Of a stretch of DNA of 64,000 nucleotides, positions 15,951 to 31,659 are shown in pieces (within the stretch, counting starts at the first letter, position 1; every line of letters begins with the position of its first letter). A model generated the notes under the pieces. That model made no database searches, had not been told where the DNA came from, and saw nothing but the letters and a program-made list of their open reading frames with translations. The stretch covers positions 2,099,501 through 2,163,500 of the forward strand of contig NZ_CP073586.1 in the NCBI RefSeq assembly GCF_022267555.1. Reading direction: 5' to 3'. The translations under genes were made by a program, and so were the position numbers. The stretch is from Proteiniphilum propionicum. GTDB lineage: Bacteria > Bacteroidota > Bacteroidia > Bacteroidales > Dysgonomonadaceae.

Positions 15951-17216
15951 TTAATTTCTTTTAGATGTTACCTGATTTTCATACTCTTGAATCTCTTTGA
16001 TGTATGCATCACTTACCGGAACATCCTGTTGCAGGCAATAATAGTTATATACTGCACTCCATGGCATCGACTTCAGTTCTTCAAACCAGGCCAAACGTTC
16101 AAAATTCTTATTCCGGGTTTCCAGTTCGACTAATTTTGGGGTCGGTTCAAGAAGCGCTTGCAACATGGCTTTCTGTGTAGAGCGGATCCCTGCTACGTAT
16201 GCACCTATACGATTGATAGATGCATCGAAATAGTCGAGTCCAACGTGAACACGGTTGATATGCCCTGAACGAACAATCTCTTGAGATAAAGCCAGCAGCT
16301 CATCGCTTAGAATAACCACGTGATCGCTGTCCCACCGTTCAGGACGACTTACATGCAGATTTAGTTCGGGAACAAAGAGCAGCATGGAAGATATTTTATC
16401 TGAGATCACCTCGGTCGGGTGGAAGTGTCCGGCATCCAGAGTCAGCATCATGTTGTTTTTAACAGCATAGCCCATATAGAATTCGTGTGAACCCACTACA
16501 TAACTCTCGCTTCCAATGCCAAAGAGCTTGCACTCGATACAATCTTTCAGATAATCGGTGCTGATTTTTTCTGCTAAAACTTCATCAAGCGACTCCTGTA
16601 AAAGTCTTCTGTGTTCGTAGCGGGAAACAGTTTTATCTTTTTCTCCGTCCGGAATCCATATATTATGAATACAGGGATCACCCTGCTGACGTCCTATCTC
16701 CGCTGCAATTTTTCTACACCGGCGTAAATGTTCTTTCCAGAATCCCCTGATCTCAGGATCAAAATCTGAAAGAGTATAACCGCTATTTGATTTCTTGTGT
16801 GAAAAAAAAGTTGAGTTAAAGTCCAGCTTTACTCCTTTTTCTTTTGCCCAATCTATCCAGCTCTGAAAATGCTTTGGTTCAATCTTATCGCGATCAACAA
16901 ATTCGTTGCCAAAATCACCATATGTAGCGTGTAGGCTTATTCTGTGTTTTCCCGGGATAAGTGAAAGCACTTTTTCGAGGTCACTCCTTAACTCACTTAT
17001 AGTGCGCGCTTTTCCCGGATAGTTGCCGGTAGTCTGGATACCCCCGGTCAATTCCCCGTCTGGATTTTCAAACCCCGATACATCATCAGCCTGCCAGCAA
17101 TGTATCGAAATTGATTGATTGTTTAACTTTTCGATGGCATTATCAATATCCACTCCCAATGATGCATATTGTGCCTTGGCATCCTCATATGCTTTTCTGA
17201 TCTGTTCTCCTTGCAT
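15951..17216 (-). CDS. rhaA: L-rhamnose isomerase
   Basis: The 421-residue protein is a full-length RhaA. HCWQADDVSGFE lies near residue 40, GGIQTTGNYPGKAR follows, and the metal-binding barrel strands carry KLDFNSTFFSHKKS, CIHNIWIPDGEKD, LTLDAGHFHPTE and RPERWDSDHVV. It converts L-rhamnose to L-rhamnulose in the cytoplasm using divalent metal ions. Its product is the substrate of RhaB, encoded upstream. The rhaB-rhaA gap is 130 bp and the rhaA-rhaT gap only 3 bp. Confidence 0.97.
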   Translation of the reverse strand: MQGEQIRKAYEDAKAQYASLGVDIDNAIEKLNNQSISIHCWQADDVSGFENPDGELTGGIQTTGNYPGKARTISELRSDLEKVLSLIPGKHRISLHATYGDFGNEFVDRDKIEPKHFQSWIDWAKEKGVKLDFNSTFFSHKKSNSGYTLSDFDPEIRGFWKEHLRRCRKIAAEIGRQQGDPCIHNIWIPDGEKDKTVSRYEHRRLLQESLDEVLAEKISTDYLKDCIECKLFGIGSESYVVGSHEFYMGYAVKNNMMLTLDAGHFHPTEVISDKISSMLLFVPELNLHVSRPERWDSDHVVILSDELLALSQEIVRSGHINRVHVGLDYFDASINRIGAYVAGIRSTQKAMLQALLEPTPKLVELETRNKNFERLAWFEELKSMPWSAVYNYYCLQQDVPVSDAYIKEIQEYENQVTSKRN

Positions 17217-17346
17217 GATTATTTGACATTAAATAAAATCGTTCATATCTCCTTATGAACTTTCGTATGTGTAATTATGACAACTATAATGCACAAGCAA
17301 TGTGTTATACTTACTTGTATATATTGGTAACTAATACTGGTGAAAC

Positions 17347-18831
17347 TTAAATCTCTTTATATACATTCAGATAGCTTTGATAGCTTTCATTCCATAATTC
17401 TGCCTCTGAGGGTTCAAATACTTCAAGATCTGAAGAGTTGCTGACTATGCGCCGTATCTCAGTTTTATTTTTAACCAGTCCCGCTGCCTTAGCCTGCATA
17501 AGAATGTTCCCGATAGCTGTTGCCTCCGATGGGCCAGCAACTACCGGCTTATTTATGGCATTGGCAGTAAATGAATTAAGCATGTTGTTTTTTGAGCCAC
17601 CGCCAATAATATGTAGCTTCTCTATAGGGAAATTGGCCAACTCCTGAAGATTCTGTAACACCTGTTTATACCTGAATGCCAGGCTTTCGTATATGCAGCG
17701 TGCAATCTCCCCCATGGATGCCGGTACATATTGACCGGTTTGCCTGCAATACTCCTGAATAGATTCCACCATAGATGATGGGCTTGTGAAACAAGGTGAA
17801 TCTGGATTGATAAAGCATTTGAAAGGTGTAGACTGTTTTGCTGCATTAACAATTTCTGGATAGGTAACAGGATCTTCTTTTTCCCATTCCTTTTTACACT
17901 GTTCAATCAACCACATGCCACAAATATTCTTTAGTAGGCGGATTGAACCGTCGGCACCTCCTTCGTTCGTGAAATTAAGTGCATAGGTCTCTTTGTTGAT
18001 AACCGGTTTTTCAGATTCAATACCCATTAACGACCAGGTGCCTGAACTTAAATAGGCAAAGTGCTTATTATCTGCCGGGACAGCCAGTACTGCTGAAGCG
18101 GTATCGTGACCGGCAACAGCAATGACCGAGATATTCTGCAGCCCGGTTAAACGCTGTACAGATGATGATATCTTTCCAATCTCTGTTCCTGAGAAAACGA
18201 CAGGAGCAAACCGATCTTTGGATAGTTTTACTGCTTCAAGCAGTGAAGTGTCGAATTCTTTGGAGTAGGGGTTTACCATTTGCGAAGTGGAAGCAATTGT
18301 GTATTCCGTCACCATTTCTCCTGTTAACAGATAGGACAATGCATCAGGCATAAATAGTATCTTGTCAATAACAGGGTAAATTGAAGAATTTTGTCTCAGT
18401 TGGGTGTCTAATTGAAAGAGAGTATTAAAGTCCATAATTTGTATCCCCGTCTTTCTGTACACCTCTTCTTTTGGTATTTTTGAGAAAAAATGTTCCGGTG
18501 CTCCAAAAGTATGATTGTCGCGGTAGCTGTAAGGCATCCGTAACGGCTCTCCATCCTTTCCGAAACAAACGAAATCTACTCCCCAAGTGTCGATACCAAG
18601 AGACATAATTGGTAAATGCTCAGATTCAACCTCTTGCAGCGATGTTATAATTTGTTGATACTGATGGAGAAGATCCCAATGCAAACGGCCATTCATTTCG
18701 ATTATAGGATTGGGAAAACGCCTGATCTCCTTCAATTGCAGACTTTCATCCTGAATAGTTCCCAATATGGCTCTTCCGCTGCTGGCGCCAATGTCTATGG
18801 CTAAAAAAGATGTTAACTTTCCTCTGTTCAT
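17347..18831 (-). CDS. rhaB: Rhamnulokinase (FGGY family)
   Basis: This 494-residue FGGY kinase starts with the ATP-binding strand FLAIDIGASSGRAILG, has LGIDTWGVDFVCFG near residue 90, VIAVAGHDTASAV and YLSSGTWSLMG in the middle, and HIIGGGSKNNMLN near the C-terminus. It phosphorylates L-rhamnulose to L-rhamnulose-1-phosphate. The frame can be extended to a GTG at 18870, but the promoter -7 element occupies 18870-18877, so the ATG at 18831 is chosen. It is the first gene of the locus. No rhamnulose-1-phosphate aldolase gene follows it. Confidence 0.95.
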   Translation of the reverse strand: MNRGKLTSFLAIDIGASSGRAILGTIQDESLQLKEIRRFPNPIIEMNGRLHWDLLHQYQQIITSLQEVESEHLPIMSLGIDTWGVDFVCFGKDGEPLRMPYSYRDNHTFGAPEHFFSKIPKEEVYRKTGIQIMDFNTLFQLDTQLRQNSSIYPVIDKILFMPDALSYLLTGEMVTEYTIASTSQMVNPYSKEFDTSLLEAVKLSKDRFAPVVFSGTEIGKISSSVQRLTGLQNISVIAVAGHDTASAVLAVPADNKHFAYLSSGTWSLMGIESEKPVINKETYALNFTNEGGADGSIRLLKNICGMWLIEQCKKEWEKEDPVTYPEIVNAAKQSTPFKCFINPDSPCFTSPSSMVESIQEYCRQTGQYVPASMGEIARCIYESLAFRYKQVLQNLQELANFPIEKLHIIGGGSKNNMLNSFTANAINKPVVAGPSEATAIGNILMQAKAAGLVKNKTEIRRIVSNSSDLEVFEPSEAELWNESYQSYLNVYKEI

Positions 18832-18869
18832 TTCGAGGTTAAATATGAAATTATTTAAATTTATTTTCA

Positions 18870-18901
18870 CAAAAATACAGTTAACACATAATTTTCACAA
18901 T
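18870..18901 (-). promoter_or_regulatory. Probable promoter of the rhamnose operon
   Basis: On the plus strand CAAAAATA (18870-18877) is the reverse complement of an exact Bacteroidetes -7 element (TAnnTTTG). About 20 bp further a near-match to the -33 box is seen (CAAT instead of CAAA). Transcription would begin close to 18863, giving a leader of about 30 nt before the rhaB ATG at 18831. The rest of the 390-bp divergent intergenic region (18832-19221) is very AT-rich and holds only this and the opposing promoter as far as I can tell. Confidence 0.55.
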
Positions 18902-19139: not shown

Positions 19140-19171
19140 TTTGTAATTTTTATAGATTATAACTATCTTTG
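19140..19171 (+). promoter_or_regulatory. Strong Bacteroidetes-type promoter for the 2-oxo-acid dehydrogenase/aldolase cluster
   Basis: TTTG at 19140-19143 and TATCTTTG at 19164-19171 match the -33 and -7 consensus exactly with a 20-bp spacer. The predicted start near 19178 gives a leader of about 44 nt before the E2 gene. It is the best promoter match in the window. Confidence 0.75.
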
Positions 19172-19221: not shown

Positions 19222-20640
19222 ATGGCAACATTGATAATCATGCCCAGGCAGGGTCAATCTGTAGAAAGCTGTATCATAACAGAAATAAAAAAGAAAAAGG
19301 GTGATTCCGTTGAAAAGGGAGACATTTTGTTTTCCTACGAAACTGATAAAGCCAGCTTTGAAGAGTCGTCACCTGTCGATGGATTTGTGTTGGCCTGTTT
19401 TTACGGCGAGGGCGACGAGGTGCCCGTATTGGATAATATGATGGTTATCGGCGATTCAGGAGAAGATATATCCTCATTGCTTGCCGAAAGCCCGGCAGCG
19501 AGTTTAGATAATGAAACAGCTTCTCCCTATGGAGATATCGTTTCATCCGGATCAGCATCAGCCGGCCTTGCCATAGAGGCAGGTGATACCTTTCATTCCG
19601 CTCCTGGTTTAACCATGGAATCACCGTTGCAAGAGCCCCTTGTAAGTCCGGCAGGTGCTCATCGGGTAGAGCGGCATTACGTCACACCGCGAGCAGGAAA
19701 GCTCGCAGAACGTCATTCACTTGATGCATCCGTTCTTCAGGGTAGCGGTCCCGGTGGCCGTGTGATGGAACGTGATGTGGAGTCAGCACTGGAGAAACGC
19801 CCGAAGATGACCGCCCTTGCCAGGGAGGTGTCCTGGGAGCAGCAGGTACTTACCCCACTTTCTCCGGGTAGCGGCCTTGGCGGCAGAGTGCGAGCCTCCG
19901 ATCTAAGTGCGCCGGTTGATACCCCCTACGGGGTAGATTACGAAGATAGGAAGATCTCTAATATGCGCAAGCTTATTGCCCGCTCGATGCATTCTTCGCT
20001 GCAGAACTCGGCACAGCTGACACACCATCTTGGAGCCGATGCAAGGCGTATCCTGTCTCTGCGCAAAAGAGCCAAGGCCGCCCATGAAGAAGGTCTTCTG
20101 GAAGAAAACATAACCCTGAACGACATGGTCTGCTTCGCGGTTATCAAAGCCCTGAAAAAATTCCCCAATGTGAACAGTCATTTTCTGGGAGAAAAGATTC
20201 GTTATTTCAATAAGGTTCACCTCGGCCTTGCCGTTGATACCGACCGTGGTTTGATGGTGCCTGTCGTGCGCAATGCTGATGACCTGTCCCTCCCCGGCCT
20301 CTCTTTACAGCTTAAAGAGGTTGCTTCGGCCTGTCGTGGAGGTAGTGTGAATCCCGATATTCTCGCTTCCGAGTCGGGCACCTTCACCGTGTCCAACCTG
20401 GGTAACTACGGGGTAGAGATGTTTACACCGGTTATCAACCTGCCTCAGTCCGCCATTCTTGGAGTCAATACCATCGTCCCCCGTCCTAAAGATATGGGTG
20501 ACGGCGTTTATGCCTTTGTCCCCTATATTGGCCTGAGCCTTACCTACGACCATCGCTCGCTTGATGGCGGTGAAGCCACCCGCTTCCTTAAGCAGATAGC
20601 TACGGAGATTGAGAATCTTGAAATTGATGTGCTGGCTTGA
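19222..20640 (+). CDS. 2-oxo-acid dehydrogenase complex E2 (dihydrolipoamide acyltransferase)
   Basis: The 472-residue protein starts with one lipoyl domain (lipoyl-lysine in YETDKASFEE, about residue 42). After a linker come two peripheral-subunit-binding-like segments: a good one (VTPRAGKLAERHSLD, GSGPGGRVMERDV, about 153-190) and a degraded second one (GSGLGGRVRASDL, about 217-230). The catalytic trimer domain (about 245-472) ends with the active-site YDHRSLDGGEATRFL. E2 transfers the acyl group from lipoamide to CoA. Which 2-oxo acid is used is not evident. Its E3 and E1 partners and a lipoate ligase lie in the same cluster. Confidence 0.93.
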   Translation: MATLIIMPRQGQSVESCIITEIKKKKGDSVEKGDILFSYETDKASFEESSPVDGFVLACFYGEGDEVPVLDNMMVIGDSGEDISSLLAESPAASLDNETASPYGDIVSSGSASAGLAIEAGDTFHSAPGLTMESPLQEPLVSPAGAHRVERHYVTPRAGKLAERHSLDASVLQGSGPGGRVMERDVESALEKRPKMTALAREVSWEQQVLTPLSPGSGLGGRVRASDLSAPVDTPYGVDYEDRKISNMRKLIARSMHSSLQNSAQLTHHLGADARRILSLRKRAKAAHEEGLLEENITLNDMVCFAVIKALKKFPNVNSHFLGEKIRYFNKVHLGLAVDTDRGLMVPVVRNADDLSLPGLSLQLKEVASACRGGSVNPDILASESGTFTVSNLGNYGVEMFTPVINLPQSAILGVNTIVPRPKDMGDGVYAFVPYIGLSLTYDHRSLDGGEATRFLKQIATEIENLEIDVLA

Positions 20641-20687
20641 GAATTCGGTGATTAGCTGATTCGCTGATTTGAAGATTTGAGAATTCG
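20637..20687. repeat. 11-bp direct repeat overlapping the E2 stop codon
   Basis: TTGAGAATTCG occurs at 20637-20647, where it contains the E2 TGA stop, and again at 20677-20687. Between them lies a simple, slipped sequence built from GATT/GCTGATT words. The remaining gap to the E3 gene (to 20834) holds nothing recognisable. Confidence 0.6.
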
Positions 20688-20834
20688 ATGTTAACATGTT
20701 TATATTTTAGTCGGTTTGATGCTCAATGTTTGAGGTTGATTTATTCTGAACTAGTGACCAGGGGCCAACGGCTCAATGAAATAGGCCGCTGAAAACTTGA
20801 AACCAAACAACTGAAGAGAAAAATATTTTCATCT

Positions 20835-22190
20835 ATGATAGATTTACTGATTATTGGGGGAGGCCCGGCCGGTTATGTAGCGGCCGAAAGAGCCGGTGAA
20901 AAGGGACTAAAGGTAGTACTTTTCGAGAAAAAAGCTATAGGCGGGGTGTGCTTAAACGAGGGATGTATCCCTACCAAGACATTACTCTACAGTGCAAAGC
21001 TATACGAGAATGCATTGCATGGGGACAAGTATGGAGTCTTCGGAGATAACATCCGTTTCGACTATCAGAAGATGGTCTCCCGTAAAAAGAAGGTGGTTCG
21101 CAAATTAGTTCTAGGCGTTGAGAACAAGATGAAATTGAACCATGTTGCCGTGGTAAAGGGTGAAGCCTTTATCAAAGGGCGTTCATCATCCGGTATTGAA
21201 GTAACCTGTAACGGAGAAAGTTACATGGGTAGAAACCTTCTTGTCTGCACCGGTTCAGAGTCAGCCGTTCCTCCCATCCCCGGGTTAAGGGAGGCGGGAG
21301 ATACCGTGTTGACCAACCGGGAGATACTGGAGTTGACCGAGCGCCCCGAATCGCTTGTGGTCATCGGTGGCGGGGTTATCGGTATGGAGTTCGCCAGTTT
21401 CTACAACAGCCTGGGTACAAAAGTTACCGTTATAGAGATGCTTCCTGAGATCCTGGGAGGCCTCGATTTCGAGATTTCTGCGATGCTGCGTAGCATCTAC
21501 GCGAAAAAAGGAATTGACTTCCATCTCAATGCCAAAGTGGTTCAGGTTGAAGGCAACAGTGTTGTTTTCGATAAAGATGGCGAAACCCATCATGTGGAAG
21601 GGGAAAGAATACTCCTAAGCGTTGGGCGACGCCCGGTAACTCAAGGTTTTGGTCTGGAAAACCTGGGATTAGAGTTATTGCGTGGTGGTATCAAGGTAGA
21701 TGAGAAGATGCGTACCAATGTACCCGGCGTGTATGCCGCGGGCGATGTTACGGGCTTTTCGTTACTTGCCCATACTGCAAGCCGCGAAGGAGAGGTTGTT
21801 GTCAACAACCTTACCGGCAGGAACGATATCATGCGCTACAATGCCATCCCCGGTGTGGTCTATACAAATCCTGAAGTAGCTGGAGTGGGGGAGACAGAGG
21901 AGTCCGCCCGGTCCAGAAATATTGCTTATAGGGTTGCAAAACTCCAGATGACATATTCCGGTCGTTTTGTAGCTGAGAACGAGGGTGGCAACGGAATTTG
22001 CAAAGTGCTTGTGGGAGAGAAGCATGGCGAGGTTATCGGGGTTCACATGTTGGGAAACCCCAGCAGTGAGATCATCTACGGCGCCTGCCTTGCAATAGAA
22101 CAGGAGATGACCCTTAAAGAGATGCAGGAGGTCGTTTTCCCACATCCCACGGTCAGCGAGATCTTCAAAGAGGTCGTTTTTTCGTTTTAA
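20835..22190 (+). CDS. lpdA: Dihydrolipoyl dehydrogenase (E3)
   Basis: This 451-residue flavoprotein has the N-terminal FAD motif (LLIIGGGPAGYVAAERAGE), the redox disulfide in GGVCLNEGCIPTK (Cys pair about residues 38 and 43), the NAD-binding VVIGGGVIGMEFASF (about 175), the second FAD motif (TNVPGVYAAGDV) and the C-terminal catalytic HPTVSEIF. It reoxidises the dihydrolipoyl group of E2, passing electrons to NAD+. It is slightly shorter than typical E3 (about 460-475). Placement between E2 and E1 indicates that it is dedicated to this complex. Confidence 0.96.
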   Translation: MIDLLIIGGGPAGYVAAERAGEKGLKVVLFEKKAIGGVCLNEGCIPTKTLLYSAKLYENALHGDKYGVFGDNIRFDYQKMVSRKKKVVRKLVLGVENKMKLNHVAVVKGEAFIKGRSSSGIEVTCNGESYMGRNLLVCTGSESAVPPIPGLREAGDTVLTNREILELTERPESLVVIGGGVIGMEFASFYNSLGTKVTVIEMLPEILGGLDFEISAMLRSIYAKKGIDFHLNAKVVQVEGNSVVFDKDGETHHVEGERILLSVGRRPVTQGFGLENLGLELLRGGIKVDEKMRTNVPGVYAAGDVTGFSLLAHTASREGEVVVNNLTGRNDIMRYNAIPGVVYTNPEVAGVGETEESARSRNIAYRVAKLQMTYSGRFVAENEGGNGICKVLVGEKHGEVIGVHMLGNPSSEIIYGACLAIEQEMTLKEMQEVVFPHPTVSEIFKEVVFSF

Positions 22191-22556
22191 ATTGATACTA
22201 TTTTCTGAAAAGTCTTTTTCATTACAGGCGAACCAAAATAGACTGTCCCTTCTTGCGGTCTTGACCCCTCTGGTGAAACAACAGTTATCTGATATGTTGT
22301 TTGAGTAAGTTGATCACTTATCATTTAGCTTCCGGATCGATAACGGGCCAGCCAGATGATTCGGTCCTGGGGAAACAATCAGAAATGAGCAAACAGGGTA
22401 ACTGCTGAAATCAATCAGTCAAACAAACAAATAACGAGTCCACTTTAATAAGCCGTTTTGTAAAAAATAGTATTTTATTTTCAAGTGATTATGATGTGAA
22501 ATCTTCTAATTTGAGACTTCTTCTAGCAGACTCAACAACTAAAAAATAAGAATATA
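22191..22556 (+). other. 366-bp intergenic region between E3 and E1
   Basis: No reading frame, exact promoter consensus or strong hairpin was found here. The last 130 bp become AT-rich and purine-rich before the E1 start. A promoter or processing site is possible because the gap is unusually long for genes that work together, but nothing specific supports one. Confidence 0.4.
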
Positions 22557-25016
22557 ATGCCAAAAGTACAACCCATTGATCCTTCTGAAGTCCGCAAGGC
22601 CGGCTTCGTGGAGTTTCAACCTATTGCGGTTAATCAGTATCAAAAAACCGTTAAGGATGAGTTAGCCAATTTCACACCAGGCGAGTTCATGTCAATTTAC
22701 CATGACATGGTTTTGATTCGTGAGTTCGAGACCATGTTGAACCTGATAAAAACCAAGGGAGAATACAACGGTACTCAGTACAACCATCCTGGTCCGGCTC
22801 ATCTGTCCGTGGGGCAGGAGTCCGCAGCCGTGGGTATGGCATGGACACTGGGAGTGGATGATTTTATTTTCGGCAGCCACCGCTCTCATGGCGAAATCCT
22901 TGCCAAGGGTATGTCAGCAATTCATAAGCTTACTGACTCGGAACTGATGAAAATCATGAAGGAGTTTTTCGGCGGTTCCGTTCTGAAAATCGTTGAGAAG
23001 GATTTCAACGGGACAACCAGGGAACTTGCGCGCCGCTTTCTGGTCTATGGTACCCTTGCCGAGATCTTTGCGCGGGAAACTGGTTTCAACAAGGGCCTTG
23101 GCGGCTCTATGCATGCCTTCTTCACACCATTCGGTGTCTATCCTAACAATGCTATCGTGGGTGGCTCCGGAGATATTGCCGTTGGTGCGGCACTCTACAA
23201 GAAGGTGAACCGCAAGCCGGGACTTGTTGTAGCCAATATCGGCGATGCATCTCTTGCGTGCGGCCCTGTCTGGGAAGGCATCACCTTTGCCGCAATGGAC
23301 CAGTTCCGTGAGCTTTGGGAAGGAGATATGAATGGTGGCCTGCCGGTGATCATCAACATCATGAACAACCAGTATGGTATGGGAGGGCAGACCGATGGTG
23401 AGACTATGGGTTACGGCATTGCTGCCCGCGTGGGCGCCGGGGTGAATCCCGATCAGATGCACGCCGAACGTGTTGATGGTTACAACCCGTTGGCGGTAAT
23501 CGACGCCTATAAGCGTAAACGTAAGGTAATAGAGGATAAGAGAGGGCCCGTACTGCTTGACGTGCTGACCTACCGCTTCAGTGGCCACTCCCCGTCCGAT
23601 GCTTCCTCATACCGTACCAAAGAAGAGGTTGAAGCGTGGGAGTCCCATGATTGCATCCTCAGCTACGGTCGCCAGCTTATTGATGCAGGTTTGGCCTCTC
23701 AATCTGATCTTGATTCAATCCGTGTTGATATAGAAGGGCTGATGAACGGCATGTTCCTTAAAGCGATTGATGATGAAATCTCTCCAAGGATGGAGAATGC
23801 TGAAATTATTGGCGATATGATGTTCTCGAACGGTTCTGTTGATTCTTTCTCGGATGCAAAGCCAGAAGTGTTGCTGCCGATGGAGGAGAACCCGAGGGTG
23901 AAGAAGATCTCTAATAAAGAGCGTTTTGCCTTCGACTCAGAGGGGAAGCCATTCAGCAAGATGAAGCAGTTCCAGCTTCGTGACGGGATCTTCGAAGCGA
24001 TAATCGACCGTTTCTATAAAGATGCATCGCTTATTGCTTACGGAGAGGAGAACCGCGACTGGGGAGGTGCTTTTGGTGTTTACGGTGGGCTCACCGAGTC
24101 TCTTCCCTATCACCGTCTTTTCAACTCGCCCATCTCCGAGGCATCTATCGCAGGTACCGCCATCGGCTATGCGATGTGCGGTGGTCGTGTAATCCCGGAG
24201 ATTATGTATTGCGATTTCATTGGGCGTGCGGGTGATGAGATCTTCAACCAGCTTCCCAAGTGGCAGGCAATGAGCGGCAACGTTTTAAAGATGCCTGTTG
24301 TGGTACGTGTCTCGGTCGGTTCTAAATACGGTGCTCAGCACTCACAGGACTGGACCTCGCTTGTAGCGCATATTCCGGGCATCAAGGTTTGTTTCCCCGT
24401 GACGCCTTACGATGCCAAGGGACTTATGAACGCTGCGCTTCAGGGAACCGACCCGGTGATCTTCTTCGAGAGCCAGCGTATTTATGATATCGGAGAACAG
24501 TTTCATGAAGGGGGTGTTCCTGAGGGATATTACGAACTGCCTATCGGTGAGCCGGATGTAAAGAAAGAAGGCAAAGACATTACTTTCCTTACTGTCGGCC
24601 ATACGCTTTACCCCGCTTTGAAGGCGGCAGAGATACTGGAAGAGAAGTACGGGATGAGTGCCGAAGTGATTGATGCCCGCTCGCTGGTTCCTTTCAATTA
24701 CGAGCACGTGATAGCATCGGTTAAGAAGACAGGTAAGATCATCGTAGCCGGTGATGCTACCACCCGAGGTTCGTTCCTGAACGATCTGGCAAGCAATATC
24801 GGGCAGCTGGCTTTCGACTGGCTGGATGCCCCTGTCTGTGTGCTGGGTTCGCGTAACTGGATAACCCCGGCACATGAACTTGAAAGTGCTTTTTTCCCCC
24901 AGCCGGGATGGTTTATCGATATTATTCATGAGCGGATACAGCCTTTCGCAGGTTATGTTGCAGGGCAAAACTTCACCAACGGGGAGATTATCAGAAGGGC
25001 GAAAAAAGGTGTTTAA
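22557..25016 (+). CDS. 2-oxo-acid dehydrogenase E1, fused alpha and beta subunits
   Basis: The 819-residue protein joins an E1-alpha domain (about 45-440) to an E1-beta domain (about 480-815). The alpha part has HLSVGQESAAVG, FGSHRSHGEILAKG and the thiamine-diphosphate signature running from IGDASLACGPVWEG to NNQYGMGGQ. The beta part has YGEENRDWGGAFGVYGGL, FNSPISEASIAGTAIGYA and ARSLVPFNYEHV. It decarboxylates a 2-oxo acid and loads the acyl group on E2. Pyruvate, acetoin-type and branched-chain relatives share these motifs, so the substrate stays open. Fused E1 proteins are common in Bacteroidetes, though this one has an N-terminal extension of about 40 residues. Confidence 0.92.
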   Translation: MPKVQPIDPSEVRKAGFVEFQPIAVNQYQKTVKDELANFTPGEFMSIYHDMVLIREFETMLNLIKTKGEYNGTQYNHPGPAHLSVGQESAAVGMAWTLGVDDFIFGSHRSHGEILAKGMSAIHKLTDSELMKIMKEFFGGSVLKIVEKDFNGTTRELARRFLVYGTLAEIFARETGFNKGLGGSMHAFFTPFGVYPNNAIVGGSGDIAVGAALYKKVNRKPGLVVANIGDASLACGPVWEGITFAAMDQFRELWEGDMNGGLPVIINIMNNQYGMGGQTDGETMGYGIAARVGAGVNPDQMHAERVDGYNPLAVIDAYKRKRKVIEDKRGPVLLDVLTYRFSGHSPSDASSYRTKEEVEAWESHDCILSYGRQLIDAGLASQSDLDSIRVDIEGLMNGMFLKAIDDEISPRMENAEIIGDMMFSNGSVDSFSDAKPEVLLPMEENPRVKKISNKERFAFDSEGKPFSKMKQFQLRDGIFEAIIDRFYKDASLIAYGEENRDWGGAFGVYGGLTESLPYHRLFNSPISEASIAGTAIGYAMCGGRVIPEIMYCDFIGRAGDEIFNQLPKWQAMSGNVLKMPVVVRVSVGSKYGAQHSQDWTSLVAHIPGIKVCFPVTPYDAKGLMNAALQGTDPVIFFESQRIYDIGEQFHEGGVPEGYYELPIGEPDVKKEGKDITFLTVGHTLYPALKAAEILEEKYGMSAEVIDARSLVPFNYEHVIASVKKTGKIIVAGDATTRGSFLNDLASNIGQLAFDWLDAPVCVLGSRNWITPAHELESAFFPQPGWFIDIIHERIQPFAGYVAGQNFTNGEIIRRAKKGV

Positions 25017-25050
25017 GCTGAGAAATTAAAATTAATGCAATAGACTATTT

Positions 25051-26247
25051 ATGGCCGCTTATAATGATTTATCCGCTATGAACTTTGTAAATGTAAACGT
25101 ACATCTGCACACTCCTTACTCGTTTAGTGCCTTCAGCGATATAGACGATGCGCTGGATAGAGCAGTCGCAGAGAATGTGAAGGTGGTAGGTATCAACGAT
25201 TTTTACACTACCGAAGGTTACGAAGAGTGGGCGGATGGTTGCCGCAAACGCGGACTTTATCCCCTATTCGGCATTGAGTTTATTAGCCTGAACGAAGAAG
25301 ATCAAAAAGCAGGTTTGCGGGTGAATGATCCCGGGAATCCTGGGCGGACGTATGTCAGCGGGAAAGGCTTGGCGTGTCCGTTTCGTTTGACTGAGCCATT
25401 TGCATCGCAGTTGGCTGATGTTCGCACTAAAGCCAACAAGCAGGTGGAAGCGATGTGTGAAAAATTGAACGGAATTCTTACCGGTAAAAATGCCGGATTT
25501 ATACTCGATATAGATTGGATTAAAGATAATCTTACTAAGGGTTCTGTTCGTGAACGTCATCTGGCGAAGGCCTTGCGTTTGAAAGTTTACGAAAACTGCA
25601 GTGGTAACCCAACGAGTATAAAGAACCTGCTAAAAGAGATTTTCGATGGGAAAGAGCTGAAATCGACAACCGAAAATCTTGCAGGTGTAGAGAATGAGAT
25701 CCGTGCTAATCTTTTGAAATCTGGCGGCTTGGCTTTTGTTCCCGAGACTGCTGAAGCTTTTCTTCCGATGCAGACGGTTTGCAAAATCATTCTTGAGGCA
25801 GGGGGAATACCTACATATCCTTTTTTAGCGGATGATGCTCAGGGAAATTATACAGATTTTGAGCGCGACTTGGAACATGTAGCAGAACAACTGACCGAGC
25901 GTGGGTTTCATTCCGTGGAATTTATTACCACCCGAAACGATATGAACTTGCTGGAGAACTATGCTTCGTACCTTCACGACCAGGGTTTTATCGTAACCCT
26001 GGGCAGTGAACACAATTCTCCGTCAATGGAACCCATTGAACTTTTTGCCCGCAACCAGACTCCATTATCGGATAAATTGATACGGATAAACTACGAAGGG
26101 GCGTGTGTTATTGCAGCTCATCAGCATTTGGTTACCCAGGGGCTGAGTGGTTATGTGGATGAACAGGGAAACGCTGACCGCTCGAAAAGAGGTGAATTCG
26201 TGAAATTGGGAGATGAGTTAATAAGAAACAGAGTCGGAAAACAATAA
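25051..26247 (+). CDS. PHP-domain metal-dependent hydrolase of unknown substrate
   Basis: This 398-residue protein starts with a PHP-type metal motif (VNVHLHTPYSFSAFSD, HxH near residue 14-16), followed by GINDFYTTEG, FGIEFISL and, late, VTLGSEHNSPSMEP, all placed as in PHP phosphoesterases. The middle third (about 90-230) is a helical insertion I do not recognise. PHP proteins include histidinol phosphatase and other sugar-phosphate or nucleotide phosphatases. The gene is 2 bp upstream of the aldolase fusion, so a role in dephosphorylating or sensing a sugar-phosphate intermediate is an inference from context only. An alternative ATG lies 27 bp downstream. Confidence 0.75.
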   Translation: MAAYNDLSAMNFVNVNVHLHTPYSFSAFSDIDDALDRAVAENVKVVGINDFYTTEGYEEWADGCRKRGLYPLFGIEFISLNEEDQKAGLRVNDPGNPGRTYVSGKGLACPFRLTEPFASQLADVRTKANKQVEAMCEKLNGILTGKNAGFILDIDWIKDNLTKGSVRERHLAKALRLKVYENCSGNPTSIKNLLKEIFDGKELKSTTENLAGVENEIRANLLKSGGLAFVPETAEAFLPMQTVCKIILEAGGIPTYPFLADDAQGNYTDFERDLEHVAEQLTERGFHSVEFITTRNDMNLLENYASYLHDQGFIVTLGSEHNSPSMEPIELFARNQTPLSDKLIRINYEGACVIAAHQHLVTQGLSGYVDEQGNADRSKRGEFVKLGDELIRNRVGKQ

Positions 26248-26249
26248 AG

Positions 26250-28211
26250 ATGAAAGAAATTCAGGATTTAATATCTATTTCGCAGTTCTATGGCAAAGAT
26301 AGCCGTTTTGTGATCGCCGGAGGTGGAAATACCTCGTTCAAGAACGAAGAGAAAATATGGGTGAAAGCCAGCGGTTCATCACTTGCAACCATCACAGAAG
26401 ACGGTTTTGCCGTATTGGAACGCTCGCTGCTTGATAAGATATCTGAAAAGCAATACAGCAACAATGCCGCTGAGCGTGAAGAGCAAGTAAAAAATGATCT
26501 TGCCGCTGCTACCATAACAAAAGGTAAACGCCCGTCGGTAGAGACCTCTATGCACAATGTGATCGACTATGCATTTGTCGTTCACTTGCATCCCACTGTC
26601 GTTAATGGATTAATGTGTGCTGTAAATGCGGGGGCAGGGCTGAAAAATCTTTTCGGAAAAAAAGTGCTTTATGTGGAGTATACCGATCCGGGATATGTCC
26701 TGTTCAAAAAAGTGGACGAGAAAATAAGGGAATATCGCCGGAAATTCAGCGAAGAACCGCAAGTGATATGGTTGCAAAACCATGGAATTTTTGTAGCTGC
26801 AGATAGTATTGAAGAGATAAAATCAATATATTGTTCAATTATTGCGACACTTGAAAGGGCGGTGAGCAACCCCTTGCCAGTAGGTGAAAGGGAGATATGC
26901 AACTACACTGTAGAAGTGCTGCCGGCCATCCGTATGTTGGTTTCTGTGGATGGCCTAAAGACCTTGAAAATACGCATGAACGGATTGGTAGAATACTTTT
27001 GTGACACTCCCGTTAACCAGGCAGCCGTTGCCAAGCCTTTTACTCCCGATGCTATTGTTTACTGCAAATCAAACTATCTGTTTTTAAACGATGATACACC
27101 CGAACAAGTTGTTGCAAACGCAAAGGAATCGATTCCAGGTTTTGTAAGCAAGTTCGGTTATCTGCCTAAAGTCTTGTTGATAAAAGGTATCGGGCTTGTA
27201 GCCGTGGGTGACAATGCCAGGCAATGCGATATCATACTTGATGTATTTGAGGATGCAATGAGGGTCGCCTTTCTCTCACAATCGTTTGGCGGACCTCACC
27301 CGCTAATACAGCCCCAGATCGATTTTATCGATAACTGGGAAGTGGAAAATTATCGCCGAAGTATTGCTGTTGGGGCCTCTAAAGGACGTGTTGATAATAA
27401 GACCATTGTGATCACAGGAGCAGCCCAGGGCTTTGGAAAAGGAATAGGACGTTATTTGCTGCAGGAGGGTGCAAATATTGTGATTGCCGATCTGAATGAA
27501 GAGGCAGGCAGAGTGACAGCAGAAAATTTCAATAGTCTCGCCAATAACAACAGAGCTGTTTTTATAAAGACAAATGTGGTTGAAATTGAGAGCCTGGAGA
27601 ATCTTATCCATGAAACCATTTGCCTGTTCGGGGGGATAGACTGTTTTATCAGTAATGCCGGTGTTTTGCGTGCAGGCGGCCTGGAGGATATGACGCCTGA
27701 AAATTTCGATTTCGTGACCAGCATTAATTATAATGCCTATTTTTATTGCACGAAGGTGGTTAGCAGAATTATGAAATTACAGACTCTGTATGCTTCAGGT
27801 GATTATTACGCCGACATAATCCAGATAAACTCTAAATCGGGTCTTCAGGGGAGTAAAGCCAATTTTGCATATGCTGGAGGAAAATTCGGTGGTATCGGAC
27901 TGACACAATCGTTCGCGCTTGAGCTGGCGCCTTATCGCATAAAAGTGAACTCCGTTTGTCCGGGGAACTTCTATGAAGGCCCTCTCTGGAGCGATCCCGA
28001 TAATGGGTTGTTTGTACAGTATCTGAGAGCGGGAAAAGTACCAAACGCAAAAACCATCGATGATGTGAAAACGTTTTATCTGTCGAAGGTGCCAATGAAA
28101 AAGGGATGTACGCCGGAAGATGTTACCAAAGCAGTGCTCTACCTGATGGATCAGTGTGGTGAGACAGGACAGGCATTGCCTGTTACCGGCGGACAGGTAA
28201 TGTTGAATTAA
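26250..28211 (+). CDS. Bifunctional class II aldolase / short-chain dehydrogenase
   Basis: In this 653-residue protein residues 1 to about 370 are a class II aldolase/adducin domain: AGGGNTSFKN, PSVETSMH with the likely catalytic Glu, zinc ligands in VVHLHPTVV, and WLQNHGIFV. Residues about 380-653 are a short-chain dehydrogenase with TGAAQGFGKGIG, SNAGVL, NSKSGLQGSKANFAYAGGK and a C-terminus (VPMKKGCTPEDV, ETGQALPVTGGQVMLN) like sorbitol-6-phosphate dehydrogenase SrlD. The same architecture occurs in RhaEW-type rhamnulose-1-phosphate aldolase/lactaldehyde dehydrogenases. It could therefore cleave and oxidise a ketose- or deoxyketose-1-phosphate. The neighbouring rha operon lacks its own aldolase, which makes rhamnulose-1-phosphate a reasonable candidate. 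Confidence 0.85.
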   Translation: MKEIQDLISISQFYGKDSRFVIAGGGNTSFKNEEKIWVKASGSSLATITEDGFAVLERSLLDKISEKQYSNNAAEREEQVKNDLAAATITKGKRPSVETSMHNVIDYAFVVHLHPTVVNGLMCAVNAGAGLKNLFGKKVLYVEYTDPGYVLFKKVDEKIREYRRKFSEEPQVIWLQNHGIFVAADSIEEIKSIYCSIIATLERAVSNPLPVGEREICNYTVEVLPAIRMLVSVDGLKTLKIRMNGLVEYFCDTPVNQAAVAKPFTPDAIVYCKSNYLFLNDDTPEQVVANAKESIPGFVSKFGYLPKVLLIKGIGLVAVGDNARQCDIILDVFEDAMRVAFLSQSFGGPHPLIQPQIDFIDNWEVENYRRSIAVGASKGRVDNKTIVITGAAQGFGKGIGRYLLQEGANIVIADLNEEAGRVTAENFNSLANNNRAVFIKTNVVEIESLENLIHETICLFGGIDCFISNAGVLRAGGLEDMTPENFDFVTSINYNAYFYCTKVVSRIMKLQTLYASGDYYADIIQINSKSGLQGSKANFAYAGGKFGGIGLTQSFALELAPYRIKVNSVCPGNFYEGPLWSDPDNGLFVQYLRAGKVPNAKTIDDVKTFYLSKVPMKKGCTPEDVTKAVLYLMDQCGETGQALPVTGGQVMLN

Positions 28212-28225
28212 TAAATAGTAGCAAA

Positions 28226-29503
28226 ATGAAAACAAGAGCAGTACGGCTATATGGAAAGAAAGACCTCCGGCTAGAAGAGTTTGAGTTGCCTCCTGTAAGA
28301 GAAGATGAAATTTTAGCCAAAGTGGTTTGCGATTCTCTGTGCATGTCGTCTTACAAGGCATCCTTGCAAGGTGCAGAACACAAACGTATCCCCGATAATG
28401 TATCAGAAAACCCAATCATTATCGGACACGAGTTTGCCGGCCAACTGGTGAAGGTGGGTGCTAAATGGACTCACAAGTTCAGGGCAGGAGATAAATTTTC
28501 TATTCAGCCGGCCTTGTATTACGAAAACGGGCCTGTTGGTATTCTGAGCGCTCCAGGTTACAGTTACCCATATATTGGAGGTGATGCCACCTACGTGATC
28601 ATTCCTAATGAGGTGATGGAGAAAAAATGCCTGTTGACGTATCATGGTGAAGGATATTATCCCGCATCGCTTGCTGAGCCGTTATCTTGTGTTATAGGGG
28701 CTATGCACGCCAACTATCATACCACACCGGGCAGTTACCAGCACAAGATGGAAATTGTGGATGGTGGAAAGATGGCTATACTGGCGGGTGTGGGGCCAAT
28801 GGGGCTTGCTGCTATCAATTTCGTGCTACGCCGCGAAGAATTAAAGCCGTCCCTGTTGGTGGTTACTGATATCGACCAGTCACGGCTCAATCGTGCAGCA
28901 TCTATTTATACCGTTGAGCTTGCTGCTTCACGCGGCATCGATTTGAAATACATCAACACAGGTAAAATCGAGAATCCCGTGGAGGAGTTGAAAGCAATCA
29001 GTGGCGGTACAGGTTTCGATGATGTTTTTGTATTTGCTCCTGTAAGGGCGGTTGTTGAGCAAGGCGATGCAATTCTCGGATTTGACGGATGCTTGAATTT
29101 TTTTGCCGGTCCCGACAATCCTAATTTCAGTGCAATGTTGAATTTCTACAATGTTCATTATGCCTATACACACATTGCCGGCACAAGCGGTGGAAACAAC
29201 GATGATATGATTGAAGCGTTGGACATTATGAGCAAAGGGCTTGATCCTGCCGGGCTGGTTACCCATATAGGAGGGTTGAACGCCGTAGCTAATGCCACAA
29301 ACAACTTGCCTAATGTTGCAGGAGGCAAAAAGCTGATTTATACCCATATAGATATGCCGCTTACTCCTATTTCGGATTTTGCAAAATTAGGCGAAACGGA
29401 TGATCTTTTTAAAGGATTAGCTGAAATTTGTGAACGGAACAATGGATTGTGGTGTGTGGAAGCAGAAAATTTTTTACTGGCAAAGGCTGGTATATTATTA
29501 TAA
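28226..29503 (+). CDS. L-sorbose-1-phosphate reductase-like zinc-type dehydrogenase
   Basis: This is a 425-residue medium-chain dehydrogenase. The opening (AVRLYGKKDLRLEEFELP), the CDSLCMSSYKASLQGAEH segment, the GHEFAGQLVKVG motif and EPLSCVIGAMHANYH resemble SorE-type L-sorbose-1-phosphate reductases. The NAD(P) site is LAGVGPMGLAAINF with ITD-type VVTDIDQSRL. SorE converts L-sorbose-1-phosphate to glucitol-6-phosphate, which the SrlD-like domain encoded just upstream (14 bp) could handle, so the two make a plausible pair. The true substrate is not determined by sequence. Confidence 0.85.
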   Translation: MKTRAVRLYGKKDLRLEEFELPPVREDEILAKVVCDSLCMSSYKASLQGAEHKRIPDNVSENPIIIGHEFAGQLVKVGAKWTHKFRAGDKFSIQPALYYENGPVGILSAPGYSYPYIGGDATYVIIPNEVMEKKCLLTYHGEGYYPASLAEPLSCVIGAMHANYHTTPGSYQHKMEIVDGGKMAILAGVGPMGLAAINFVLRREELKPSLLVVTDIDQSRLNRAASIYTVELAASRGIDLKYINTGKIENPVEELKAISGGTGFDDVFVFAPVRAVVEQGDAILGFDGCLNFFAGPDNPNFSAMLNFYNVHYAYTHIAGTSGGNNDDMIEALDIMSKGLDPAGLVTHIGGLNAVANATNNLPNVAGGKKLIYTHIDMPLTPISDFAKLGETDDLFKGLAEICERNNGLWCVEAENFLLAKAGILL

Positions 29504-29518
29504 AAAATTAATTATAGC

Positions 29519-29566
29519 TGAAAGTCCATTTTTGAGACATCATAAAATGTTTTGTCTCGGCTTTCA
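29519..29566 (+). terminator. Double-stem hairpin between the SorE-like and tandem-aldolase genes
   Basis: TGAAAG (29519-29524) pairs with CTTTCA (29561-29566), and inside it GAGACA (29534-29539) pairs with TGTCTC (29553-29558). No U-run follows directly, so partial termination, mRNA stabilisation or processing are all possible. Confidence 0.35.
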
Positions 29567-29584
29567 ACTAATAAAATTATGTAA

Positions 29585-30883
29585 ATGAGACAGTTGGATA
29601 TTAATTTAATGCATCCGGTGGAACAGATTAACGTGATCATCGGAAGAATCTACAGTAGCGGGATGACAACCACTTCGGGTGGCAATATCTCTATCAGGGA
29701 TAAAAACGGGGACATATGGATAACCCCTTCGGGTGTGGATAAAGGTTCACTTACTGTGAATGATATTATGCAAGTGAAAAAGGACGGGACCGTCATAGGC
29801 CTGCACAAACCATCATCGGAGCTCCCTTTTCATAAGGCCATCTATGAGGCAAGACCTGAGATAACGGCGATCATTCACGCTCATCCACCTGCACTTGTAG
29901 CCTTCAGTATTGCCGGTATTGTTCCGGACACCAAAATTGTACCGCAAGCACATAATATTTGCGGAGATATCGGTTTTGCTCCCTATGGTACTCCCGGCAG
30001 TGAAGATCTGGGTGAAAAGATTGCCTGCGAATTCAGGGATACCCGATATAAGGCGGTGATCATGGAGAATCATGGCGTGGTGTTGGGCGGGACCGATTTG
30101 ATGGATGCATATCAGCGGTTTGAAACACTTGAGTTCTGTTGTCGCACTATCATTAATGCCAAAAGGCTGGGGCATGCGAATTATCTTACAGATGAACAGG
30201 TATTGAAATACGTAAATCATTTACCTTCCAATGTTCCACATTTTATGGATATTGAATACCCTTCCGACGAAAGGGCGTTGAGAACCGAAATGGTGAATAT
30301 TATCAGGAGAGCTTGTAATCAGGGGCTGATGATATCGACTTATGGAACGGTTTCCGTACGCTGGAGAAATAATGATTTTCTTATCACCCCAAGGAATGTG
30401 GCACGGTGGGATATTGTACCAAGTGATATTGTGCAGATAAAAAGTGGTATGGCCGAAGCGGGGAAAACGCCAAGCAGATCGGTTGCATTGCACCAACGTA
30501 TTTACCAGTTGAATCCGCACATCAACTCCATTATCTGCACACAGCCGGTGAATCTGATGGCACATGCGGTAAGCGGAACAAAATTCGATGTGAGAACTAT
30601 CCCCGAAAGCTGGATCTTTCTACAGGATGTTCCTTCCATAGCTTTCGGGTTAATTTTTAATGATGTGGACAGCGTGGCAAGAATGTTCAATGAAAACCGT
30701 GTAATCCTGGTAGAAAACGACAGTGTATTTGTAACTGGAGACAAACTGCTTAATACCTTCGATTACCTTGAGGTAGCTGAATTCTCTGCTAACTCACTTG
30801 TGATGGCCTCTTCGATTGGTTCGTTACAACCGATTGGAGACAAAGAGATAGATGAGTTACGAATCGCGTTCAATGTGAAATAG
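29585..30883 (+). CDS. Tandem class II aldolase/adducin protein with inactive second domain
   Basis: The 432-residue protein holds two copies of the class II aldolase fold. Domain 1 (about 1-205) has SGGNISIRD, PSSELPFH with the catalytic Glu, zinc ligands in IIHAHPPAL and ENHGVVLGG. Domain 2 (about 225-430) keeps the fold (STYGTVSVRW) but has PSRSVALH, IICTQPVNL and ENDSVFVTG at the matching sites, so the Glu and all three zinc His are gone. Domain 1 should cleave an aldol substrate such as a sugar 1-phosphate; domain 2 is probably structural or regulatory. It follows the SorE-like gene after an 81-bp hairpin-containing gap. Confidence 0.88.
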   Translation: MRQLDINLMHPVEQINVIIGRIYSSGMTTTSGGNISIRDKNGDIWITPSGVDKGSLTVNDIMQVKKDGTVIGLHKPSSELPFHKAIYEARPEITAIIHAHPPALVAFSIAGIVPDTKIVPQAHNICGDIGFAPYGTPGSEDLGEKIACEFRDTRYKAVIMENHGVVLGGTDLMDAYQRFETLEFCCRTIINAKRLGHANYLTDEQVLKYVNHLPSNVPHFMDIEYPSDERALRTEMVNIIRRACNQGLMISTYGTVSVRWRNNDFLITPRNVARWDIVPSDIVQIKSGMAEAGKTPSRSVALHQRIYQLNPHINSIICTQPVNLMAHAVSGTKFDVRTIPESWIFLQDVPSIAFGLIFNDVDSVARMFNENRVILVENDSVFVTGDKLLNTFDYLEVAEFSANSLVMASSIGSLQPIGDKEIDELRIAFNVK

Positions 30884-30930
30884 ATTTAAAGTCACTATGT
30901 TGTCTTTTTAACAAGGCCTGTTTTTTATAT

Positions 30931-31659
30931 ATGCAAATAATCTTTTCCCACAGTAGGGTGCCGGCGTTTAATCTGTCGGCAGAAGAGTATCTTTTCCCGA
31001 AACTGGGAGAAGATTTTTTGCTACTGTATATAAACAATCCGAGCATTATTATCGGATCCAATCAGGCGGTGCTCAATGAGGTGGACCAGAATTTCTGTAT
31101 TGAGCATGGAATACGGGTTGTTCGGCGGTTGTCGGGAGGGGGGGCAGTATATCATGATACCGGGAATCTGAACTACAGTTTTATTATCGATAAAACAGAA
31201 GCTCCGCTAAGCCATCGTTTTCTCGATCCTGTGGTGGAGGTATTGCACAGAATGGGCATACCGGCTGAAATCAGAAAGAGAAAAGACCTCTGGCTGGATG
31301 GATATAAAGTATCGGGTACGGCGTCTCATGTTTCCAGGGGAAGGGAGCTTCATCATGGCACATTGCTTTATGATACGGATTTGCAGATGCTCAGGAGGTC
31401 TCTTGATGCACAAAACAGAAGTCTGATCAAAAAAGCTACAGCATCTGTACCCAGCCCCGTTAAAAATATCAGATCTTTTCTAAATGATAAAACCGGAGTA
31501 ACAGTGGAACCCGAACAGTTTTTTCAACAATTTGCCCGACAGATGGCTCAACAGTTAGGAGTAAAGGAAATAGGGGCTTTTCAGGAGGAGGAGATAGCAG
31601 AGATTGAGGAACTGCAAAAGAACAAGTATACACAGCGTGACTGGAACTACAGGATGTAG
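30931..31659 (+). CDS. lplA: Lipoate-protein ligase A family protein
   Basis: This 242-residue protein has the lipoate-binding signature VVRRLSGGGAVYHDTGNLNYSF (shown in part, about residues 65-85), preceded by IIIGSNQAV, and the catalytic-Lys region GYKVSGTASHVSR. It lacks the full C-terminal accessory domain of E. coli LplA (338 residues), like many single-domain ligases. It would attach salvaged lipoate to the lipoyl domain of the E2 encoded 11.7 kb upstream in the same strand and cluster. The 180 bp after it, up to the convergent radical SAM gene, show no clear terminator. Confidence 0.9.
   Translation: MQIIFSHSRVPAFNLSAEEYLFPKLGEDFLLLYINNPSIIIGSNQAVLNEVDQNFCIEHGIRVVRRLSGGGAVYHDTGNLNYSFIIDKTEAPLSHRFLDPVVEVLHRMGIPAEIRKRKDLWLDGYKVSGTASHVSRGRELHHGTLLYDTDLQMLRRSLDAQNRSLIKKATASVPSPVKNIRSFLNDKTGVTVEPEQFFQQFARQMAQQLGVKEIGAFQEEEIAEIEELQKNKYTQRDWNYRM

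Follow-up and report, generated by a model that had tools for sequence, protein, structure and literature searches.

A conserved gene unit linked to L-rhamnose and L-fucose catabolism in Bacteroidales, with a possible carbonyl shift and oxidative cleavage of deoxyketose phosphates

The window analysed was a stretch of 64,000 nucleotides of Proteiniphilum propionicum (contig NZ_CP073586.1, positions 2,099,501 to 2,163,500), whose genome is a single 3.9-Mb contig. Domain and model searches showed that the eight same-strand open reading frames predicted at 19222-31659 were all present and that their family assignments held: E2, E3 and a fused E1 of a 2-oxo acid dehydrogenase-type complex, a PHP-fold protein, an aldolase/dehydrogenase fusion, a SorE-like dehydrogenase, a tandem class II aldolase and LplA (Table 1). 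This set was divergent from RhaK-RhaI-RhaT, and it is highly probable that in Bacteroidales it serves as the lower half of the pathway for L-rhamnose and L-fucose. The original prediction, which had proposed a sugar phosphate pathway from the eight genes, had overlooked the divergent rhamnose operon next door and the membership of the fusion in the described RhaEW family. A RhaD identity for 13851-14747 was rejected, the model search giving an AraC-type regulator.

Table 1. Genes and features of the window around the E2-to-LplA set
Feature	Position	Strand	Remarks
Alpha-L-rhamnosidase-family protein	8680..10446	-	PF17389
Alpha-L-rhamnosidase-like protein	11564..13843	-	Matches below cut-offs
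AraC-type regulator, probable RhaR	13851..14747	-	Matches below cut-offs
RhaT, L-rhamnose symporter	14919..15947	-	Model score over cut-off
RhaI, L-rhamnose isomerase	15951..17216	-	Model score over cut-off
RhaK, rhamnulokinase	17347..18870	-	Divergent from E2; TIGR02627 530.8 bits, cut-off 527.95
Bacteroidota-type promoter-like match	19140..19171	+	Upstream of E2; weak, chance level in the window
E2, dihydrolipoyl acyltransferase	19222..20640	+	Lipoyl, E3-binding and catalytic domains; DHRSLDG motif
E3, dihydrolipoyl dehydrogenase	20835..22190	+	TIGR01350 484.8 bits, cut-off 408.8
Fused E1 alpha/beta	22557..25016	+	819 aa; thiamine diphosphate enzyme; separate clade
PHP-fold metal phosphoesterase-like protein	25051..26247	+	
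RhaE-like class II aldolase fused to SrlD/RhaW-like short-chain dehydrogenase (SDR)	26250..28211	+	653 aa
SorE/YggP-like zinc dehydrogenase (ADH)	28226..29503	+	Sugar phosphate reductase type
Tandem class II aldolase	29585..30883	+	Domain 1 intact, domain 2 degenerate; probable L-rhamnulose-1-phosphate aldolase
LplA, short lipoate-protein ligase	30931..31659	+	TIGR00545 251.7 bits, below cut-off 280

Intergenic distances of 2 and 14 bp in the middle part of the set were correct as predicted; the gaps between E2 and E3 (194 bp) and between E3 and E1 (366 bp) were wider, so that spacing does not establish a single transcript. The excellent promoter claimed before E2 was not borne out, since a sigma-70 scan gave sites no more numerous than in shuffled sequences. 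A match to TTTG-N-TAnnTTTG, which we take to be a Bacteroidota-type promoter motif, was located 50 bp before the E2 start, and three such matches occurred in the window against 2.7 expected by chance.

The PHP gene was found in 55 of 101 genomes of the family of the window species (E-value 1e-20), and the closest named relatives of the window protein came from Proteiniphilum and Petrimonas. Among 20 stretches around the family PHP genes, E1 stood before PHP in 19 and RhaK lay within the stretch in 13. A collection of 84,980 species genomes gave 302 PHP loci. Of the best 80 of these, 77 carried E1, 74 the fusion, 62 ADH, 54 the tandem aldolase, 32 RhaK and 6 FucI, many of the contigs being too short to reveal more genes. 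Among the reference genes that were looked for, E1 was the one immediately upstream of PHP, in the same orientation, in 76 of the 80. More distant Bacteroidales genomes contributed 40 loci, with PHP proteins 37-48% identical in 32 of them; 33 of the 40 carried the fusion or at least its SDR end, 30 carried E1 and 27 ADH. A GntR-UTRA regulator of one family (one member scanned) was present in 24 of these 40 loci, typically divergent from E2, and HAD phosphatase, aldo-keto reductase (AKR) and MtlD-like genes were variably present around the core.

Among 393 sampled Bacteroidales genomes, PHP was found in 51 and E1 (819-residue type, at least 67% identity, fragments included) in 54; both were present in 49, PHP only in 2, E1 only in 5 and neither in 337. 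The original prediction had staked itself on conservation of this neighbourhood, and because the set was conserved across Bacteroidales, with 49 co-occurrences in the 393 genomes, it holds in this respect. It is scarcely credible that the dehydrogenase complex is only a neighbour of the sugar genes and independent of them: the wide E3-E1 gap and the location of E1 and PHP on different contigs in a few genomes (G822, G757, G667, G566, and G791) would agree with it, but E1 accompanied PHP in 49 of 51 genomes and PHP accompanied E1 in 49 of 54, also where the genes were unlinked. The gene linkage is well supported, and the eight genes form one conserved unit. In the phylum-wide sample, PHP was detected in 1 of 395 genomes, which was the window's own, and E1 in 2 of 390 (E-value 1e-150). 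No relatives of the PHP protein were found in viral contigs or plasmids at the sensitivity used.

Some genes were seen near the cluster or its members. In one Bacteroidales genus (L185, L186, and L191), a second PHP copy was located beside AKR and sulfatase genes and not beside E1. URO-D family proteins (PF01208) were encoded at 2350-3597 in L184 and at 16045-17286 and 18756-19901 in L193, those of L193 beside a fucosidase. In the window, an MnmL/YtqA tRNA-modifying radical SAM gene (31838-32770, over cut-off) was convergent after LplA, and it was near the cluster in some other loci.

The unit was linked to deoxyhexose genes. RhaI was found in 36, a strong FucI match in 30 and either of them in 38 of 40 PHP-positive genomes, against 8, 10 and 13 of 40 PHP-negative genomes; the enrichment for either isomerase had a Fisher p of 3.7e-9, uncorrected for kinship and with a PHP-negative set matched to the PHP-positive one neither by lineage nor by size. 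In L055, L059, L065, L072, and L074, FucI and a RhaK-like kinase immediately preceded E2 in the same orientation, as did RhaK-RhaI-RhaT in L061, L063, and L098. A fucosidase-family gene was added to the locus in L193, and in genome G616 RhaI flanked one side of the cluster, and FucI with a kinase the other. The pathway very likely takes in the 6-deoxyhexoses L-rhamnose and L-fucose, which are common sugars of host and plant glycans.

Fucose loci without a class II aldolase exist. In genome G726 (99% complete), FucI-FucK-FucU-FucP (all over cut-off) and two divergent regulators were followed by E2-E3-E1-PHP-SDR-HAD-ADH and a TalC/FSA-like gene (below cut-off); PF00596 had no match genome-wide at an E-value of 0.001, which leaves this genome without a FucA, RhaD or RhaE belonging to that family. 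For the G726 SDR, which is without the aldolase domain, the best model was sorbitol-6-phosphate dehydrogenase (220 bits against a cut-off of 307); the RhaEW model gave 136 bits, also below cut-off. The order in G745 was FucI-FucK-FucP-TalC-GntR-E2-E3-E1-PHP-SDR-ADH, and G609 (90% complete) carried FucI and a RhaK-like kinase, with AraD as its single PF00596 protein. A class II aldolase was located within 10 kb of FucI in 0 of 31 PHP-positive loci against 5 of 11 PHP-negative loci (p 0.0005), although a neighbouring aldolase could be cut off because some of these contigs were short. Among 33 distant loci with the fusion family, only the SDR end was matched in 10 and the aldolase domain was absent; together with G726 and the rhizobial E1 relatives described below, this suggests that the complex need not use a 2-oxo acid derived from an aldolase. 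Sugar or polyol phosphate oxidoreduction and an acyl-CoA product, both proposed originally, remain likely. Isomerase, kinase and permease are shared with the classical FucI-FucK-FucA and RhaA-RhaB-RhaD pathways, but in the window genome the PF00596 matches were the fusion and the two tandem aldolase domains only, with no separate FucA or RhaD.

In the phylogenetic tree, the fused E1s of Bacteroidales and rhizobia formed one clade (100/100) apart from the pyruvate dehydrogenase (PDH), branched-chain 2-oxo acid dehydrogenase (BCKDH) and AcoB rows used, with few PDH references in the E1 beta tree; sequence alone therefore does not name the E1 substrate. Alignment of the E1 active site showed clade-specific residues, which gave no substrate assignment. 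Across phyla, E1 was searched in the plasmid collection, where the closest proteins were fused E1s of Rhizobium, Agrobacterium and Pleomorphomonas (52-53% identity over 96-97%). In each of the four rhizobial-type loci viewed, genes for a stand-alone lipoyl protein and an alpha/beta hydrolase came after E1, and all five of the lipoyl or hydrolase halves scanned had the acetoin dehydrogenase E2 model NF011457 as best match, none reaching its whole-protein cut-off. By analogy, these relatives point to acetoin-type ketol cleavage. In G220, from another class of Bacteroidota, E1 was followed by a SorE-like ADH (49%) and preceded by a protein weakly resembling mannitol-1-phosphate dehydrogenase (MtlD) and a sugar permease; the phylum-wide search gave no PHP match in this genome.

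Sugar ABC transporters were located around the rhizobial E1s, and one or another of these loci had an RbsD/FucU-like, a D-psicose 3-epimerase-like or a fructokinase-like protein, or a xylulokinase (over cut-off). The two kinases and the ketose 3-epimerase-like protein would suit an E1 that cleaves an ordinary ketose phosphate to glycoloyl-CoA and an aldose phosphate, as an oxidative counterpart of phosphoketolase, and HAD family F12 of five distant loci resembled phosphoglycolate phosphatase below cut-off. This explanation is nevertheless improbable, as the Bacteroidales linkage is to 6-deoxyhexose genes, and a methyl ketone and an acetyl unit fit that linkage better.

Other sugar-linked E1s were also observed. 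An Arthrobacter plasmid (L282/L289, 758-4642) carried a second, distant sugar-linked E1 type, in which a fused E1 was accompanied by a stand-alone lipoyl protein, an FGGY kinase, a class II fructose-bisphosphate aldolase and a sugar ABC transporter. Two-gene E1s with E2 and E3 were located behind sugar-binding regulators in a Clostridioides plasmid (L283, 2989-8909) and in Sinorhizobium (L290, 11146-18765). These loci suggest that sugar-linked E1 complexes are not rare.

Plasmid proteins annotated as SorE or YggP shared 49-51% identity with the ADH across 99-100% of its length, and in the ADH C39, H68, E69 and E151, presumably the catalytic zinc residues, were invariant in 13 of 13 aligned sequences. 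An inositol pathway was rejected, with a score of 61 bits for the ADH against IolM (cut-off 450). SorE acts on L-sorbose-1-phosphate/glucitol-6-phosphate, and L-sorbose is broken down via SorE and glucitol-6-phosphate dehydrogenase. A mannose/fructose/sorbose-type phosphotransferase system (PTS) of L. plantarum has genes for a SorE-like protein and an SDR next to it. The unit shares with the L-sorbose pathway a pair of medium-chain and short-chain dehydrogenases for ketose/hexitol phosphates, the ADH being about 50% identical to SorE, but here the pair is coupled to E1 and deoxyhexose genes, and no sorbose PTS was present in the annotated stretches. By analogy with that pathway, the ADH and SDR could shift the carbonyl between the ends of a ketose phosphate.

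From the gene content we infer, for each chemical step, the following route. An isomerase and a kinase, whose genes are present (in the window, in the divergent rha operon), would make a 6-deoxyketose-1-phosphate. The SorE-like ADH would reduce its C2 carbonyl to give a 6-deoxyhexitol phosphate, and the SrlD-like SDR would oxidise the methyl-adjacent carbon to give a 1-deoxyketose-6-phosphate (CH3-CO-CHOH-R). On rhamnulose- or fuculose-1-phosphate, this shift would yield a methyl ketone with the substrate shape of acetoin dehydrogenase. E1, lipoyl E2 and E3 would then split this ketone between C2 and C3 in the manner of acetoin dehydrogenase, to acetyl-CoA, NADH and a tetrose-4-phosphate, with LplA lipoylating E2; the tetrose phosphate might pass to a transaldolase, for which the TalC/FSA-like gene of five of the 40 distant loci is a candidate, or to PHP or HAD phosphatases. 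Carbonyl transposition by the ADH and SDR followed by ketol cleavage has nearly even chances of being correct. Slightly more doubtful is the full proposal, in which Bacteroidales would degrade L-fucose, and partly L-rhamnose, free of aldolase by a carbonyl shift and oxidative thiamine/lipoyl cleavage, and the rhizobial E1s would act likewise on other deoxyketoses.

The same 1-deoxyketose-6-phosphate could also be split by a TalC/FSA-type aldolase to hydroxyacetone and triose phosphate, so that E1 would act on the C3 product only. FSA accepts hydroxyacetone, and a TalC/FSA-like family was present in 5 of the 40 distant loci (two members scanned, with 214 and 201 bits, cut-off 246); against E1 in 30 of the 40, however, this makes such a split a little less probable even than cleavage to glycoloyl-CoA.

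The chief rival to carbonyl shift and ketol cleavage combines RhaEW and PDH: the fusion would make dihydroxyacetone phosphate (DHAP) and L-lactaldehyde, the latter going to L-lactate, lactate would give pyruvate, and E1-E2-E3 would be a divergent PDH. The fusion is like RhaEW in domain order, family and rhamnose linkage, and it matched the RhaEW model TIGR02632 along its length; its aldolase residues E98, H112, H114 and H178 and its SDR residues S528, Y541 and K545, which we take to be catalytic, were invariant in 15 aligned sequences. Its score, however, was 239.9 bits, far below the cut-off of 567.75, its best plasmid matches, several of which are annotated as RhaEW type, shared 25-27% identity with it, and in contrast to RhaEW it is accompanied by E1-E2-E3, PHP and the SorE-like ADH. 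RhaEW enzymes from two bacteria have been shown to have the activity in vitro (PMC3870299), which favours the rival. The complex also has the E1, E2, E3 and LplA architecture of pyruvate/branched-chain 2-oxo acid dehydrogenases, but E1 and E2 were below the PDH cut-offs (for E1, TIGR03182 183.9, cut-off 393.85, and NF006667 228.5, cut-off 321), and E1 lay outside the PDH and BCKDH branches. Matches to pyruvate:ferredoxin oxidoreductase (PFOR) were present in 40 of 40 PHP-positive genomes (38 over cut-off), and E1 is therefore not needed for pyruvate. The rival leaves the SorE-like ADH and PHP without a role, G726 and G609 retain the core with no class II aldolase that would fit, and the rhizobial and G220 E1 relatives lie amid sugar genes with no RhaEW in the stretches seen; we regard it as unlikely, though well ahead of the other explanations set out above. 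In the window itself, 54654-55046 gave a weak match to a PFOR model (25 bits) and probably encodes a 2-oxoacid:ferredoxin oxidoreductase subunit.

Several points weigh against carbonyl shift and ketol cleavage. Most clusters carried an active-looking RhaE domain, and RhaE, assessed by frame length and score, was found in all 36 RhaI-positive and 2 of 4 RhaI-negative PHP-positive genomes examined, so that an aldolase route for rhamnose very likely exists. The best NCBIfam models for E1 were those of PDH, all below cut-off. Thiamine diphosphate E1 and lipoyl chemistry are common to the complex and acetoin dehydrogenase (AcoA, AcoB, AcoC), and the rhizobial relatives have a split AcoC-type E2, but the E1 clade is separate from the acetoin E1s, the Bacteroidales E2 is of the classical type and not AcoC (lipoyl plus alpha/beta hydrolase), and the neighbours are sugar genes, not acetoin/butanediol genes. 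On stereochemical grounds, the tetrose phosphate formed would have the D-threose- or L-erythrose-4-phosphate configuration; as it would not be D-erythrose-4-phosphate, a further step would be needed. The proposal explains no role for PHP, G626 and G658 carried PHP without a solid RhaI or FucI match, the related genomes are non-independent samples set against PHP-negative genomes unmatched by lineage or size, and the TalC, SDR, MtlD-like, epimerase-like and kinase-like assignments came partly from below-cut-off matches.

The RhaE part of the fusion goes with rhamnose, and in G616 and G863 RhaE was a separate gene adjoining RhaI. Rhamnulose-1-phosphate could also be epimerised at C4 to fuculose-1-phosphate in an aldol-type reaction. 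In the tandem aldolase, the Glu and three His of domain 1 were kept in 12 of 12 sequences, while C318, Q320 and D379 occupied the His positions in domain 2. Two rhamnose-type operons of Persicobacter contained it and no other recognisable aldolase: one had the order RhaT-RhaI-kinase-lactaldehyde-reductase-like-tandem aldolase, and in Persicobacter psychrovividus (L288, 12229-16302) a rhizobial-type rhamnose isomerase relative, an FGGY kinase and the tandem aldolase stood in a row. In G863 it was near RhaI and a lactaldehyde-reductase-like gene. The tandem aldolase is probably a rhamnulose-1-phosphate aldolase, and with it, perhaps also with the RhaE domain, a classical branch to DHAP and lactaldehyde would operate for rhamnose beside the proposed route.

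The predicted structure of the PHP protein (mean pLDDT 89) resembled those of nucleoside bisphosphate phosphatase and RNase AM, with 2yb1, 9etk (RNase AM) and 3o0f as top matches. H18 and H20 of the HxH motif were present in 17 of 17 sequences. The second motif of PHP phosphoesterases is Asp-His; at this position, D50 was followed by F51, invariant in 17 of 17.

Among the papers that searches of an open-access library listed, none described this cluster in its title or abstract, which is weak evidence of absence since most subscription papers were outside the coverage. The familiar fucose and rhamnose routes run via DHAP and lactaldehyde and end in lactate or propanediol. Lactaldehyde has been named as the common product of these routes (PMC3870299). 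Oxidative cleavage to acetyl-CoA and tetrose phosphate would make neither lactaldehyde nor propanediol. If the proposal is true, the predicted fermentation products would change for Bacteroidales such as Proteiniphilum, Petrimonas, Paludibacter and some rumen lineages. Sugar phosphates would join the substrates of 2-oxo acid dehydrogenase-type complexes, and E1s currently annotated as alpha-ketoacid dehydrogenases would gain a function.

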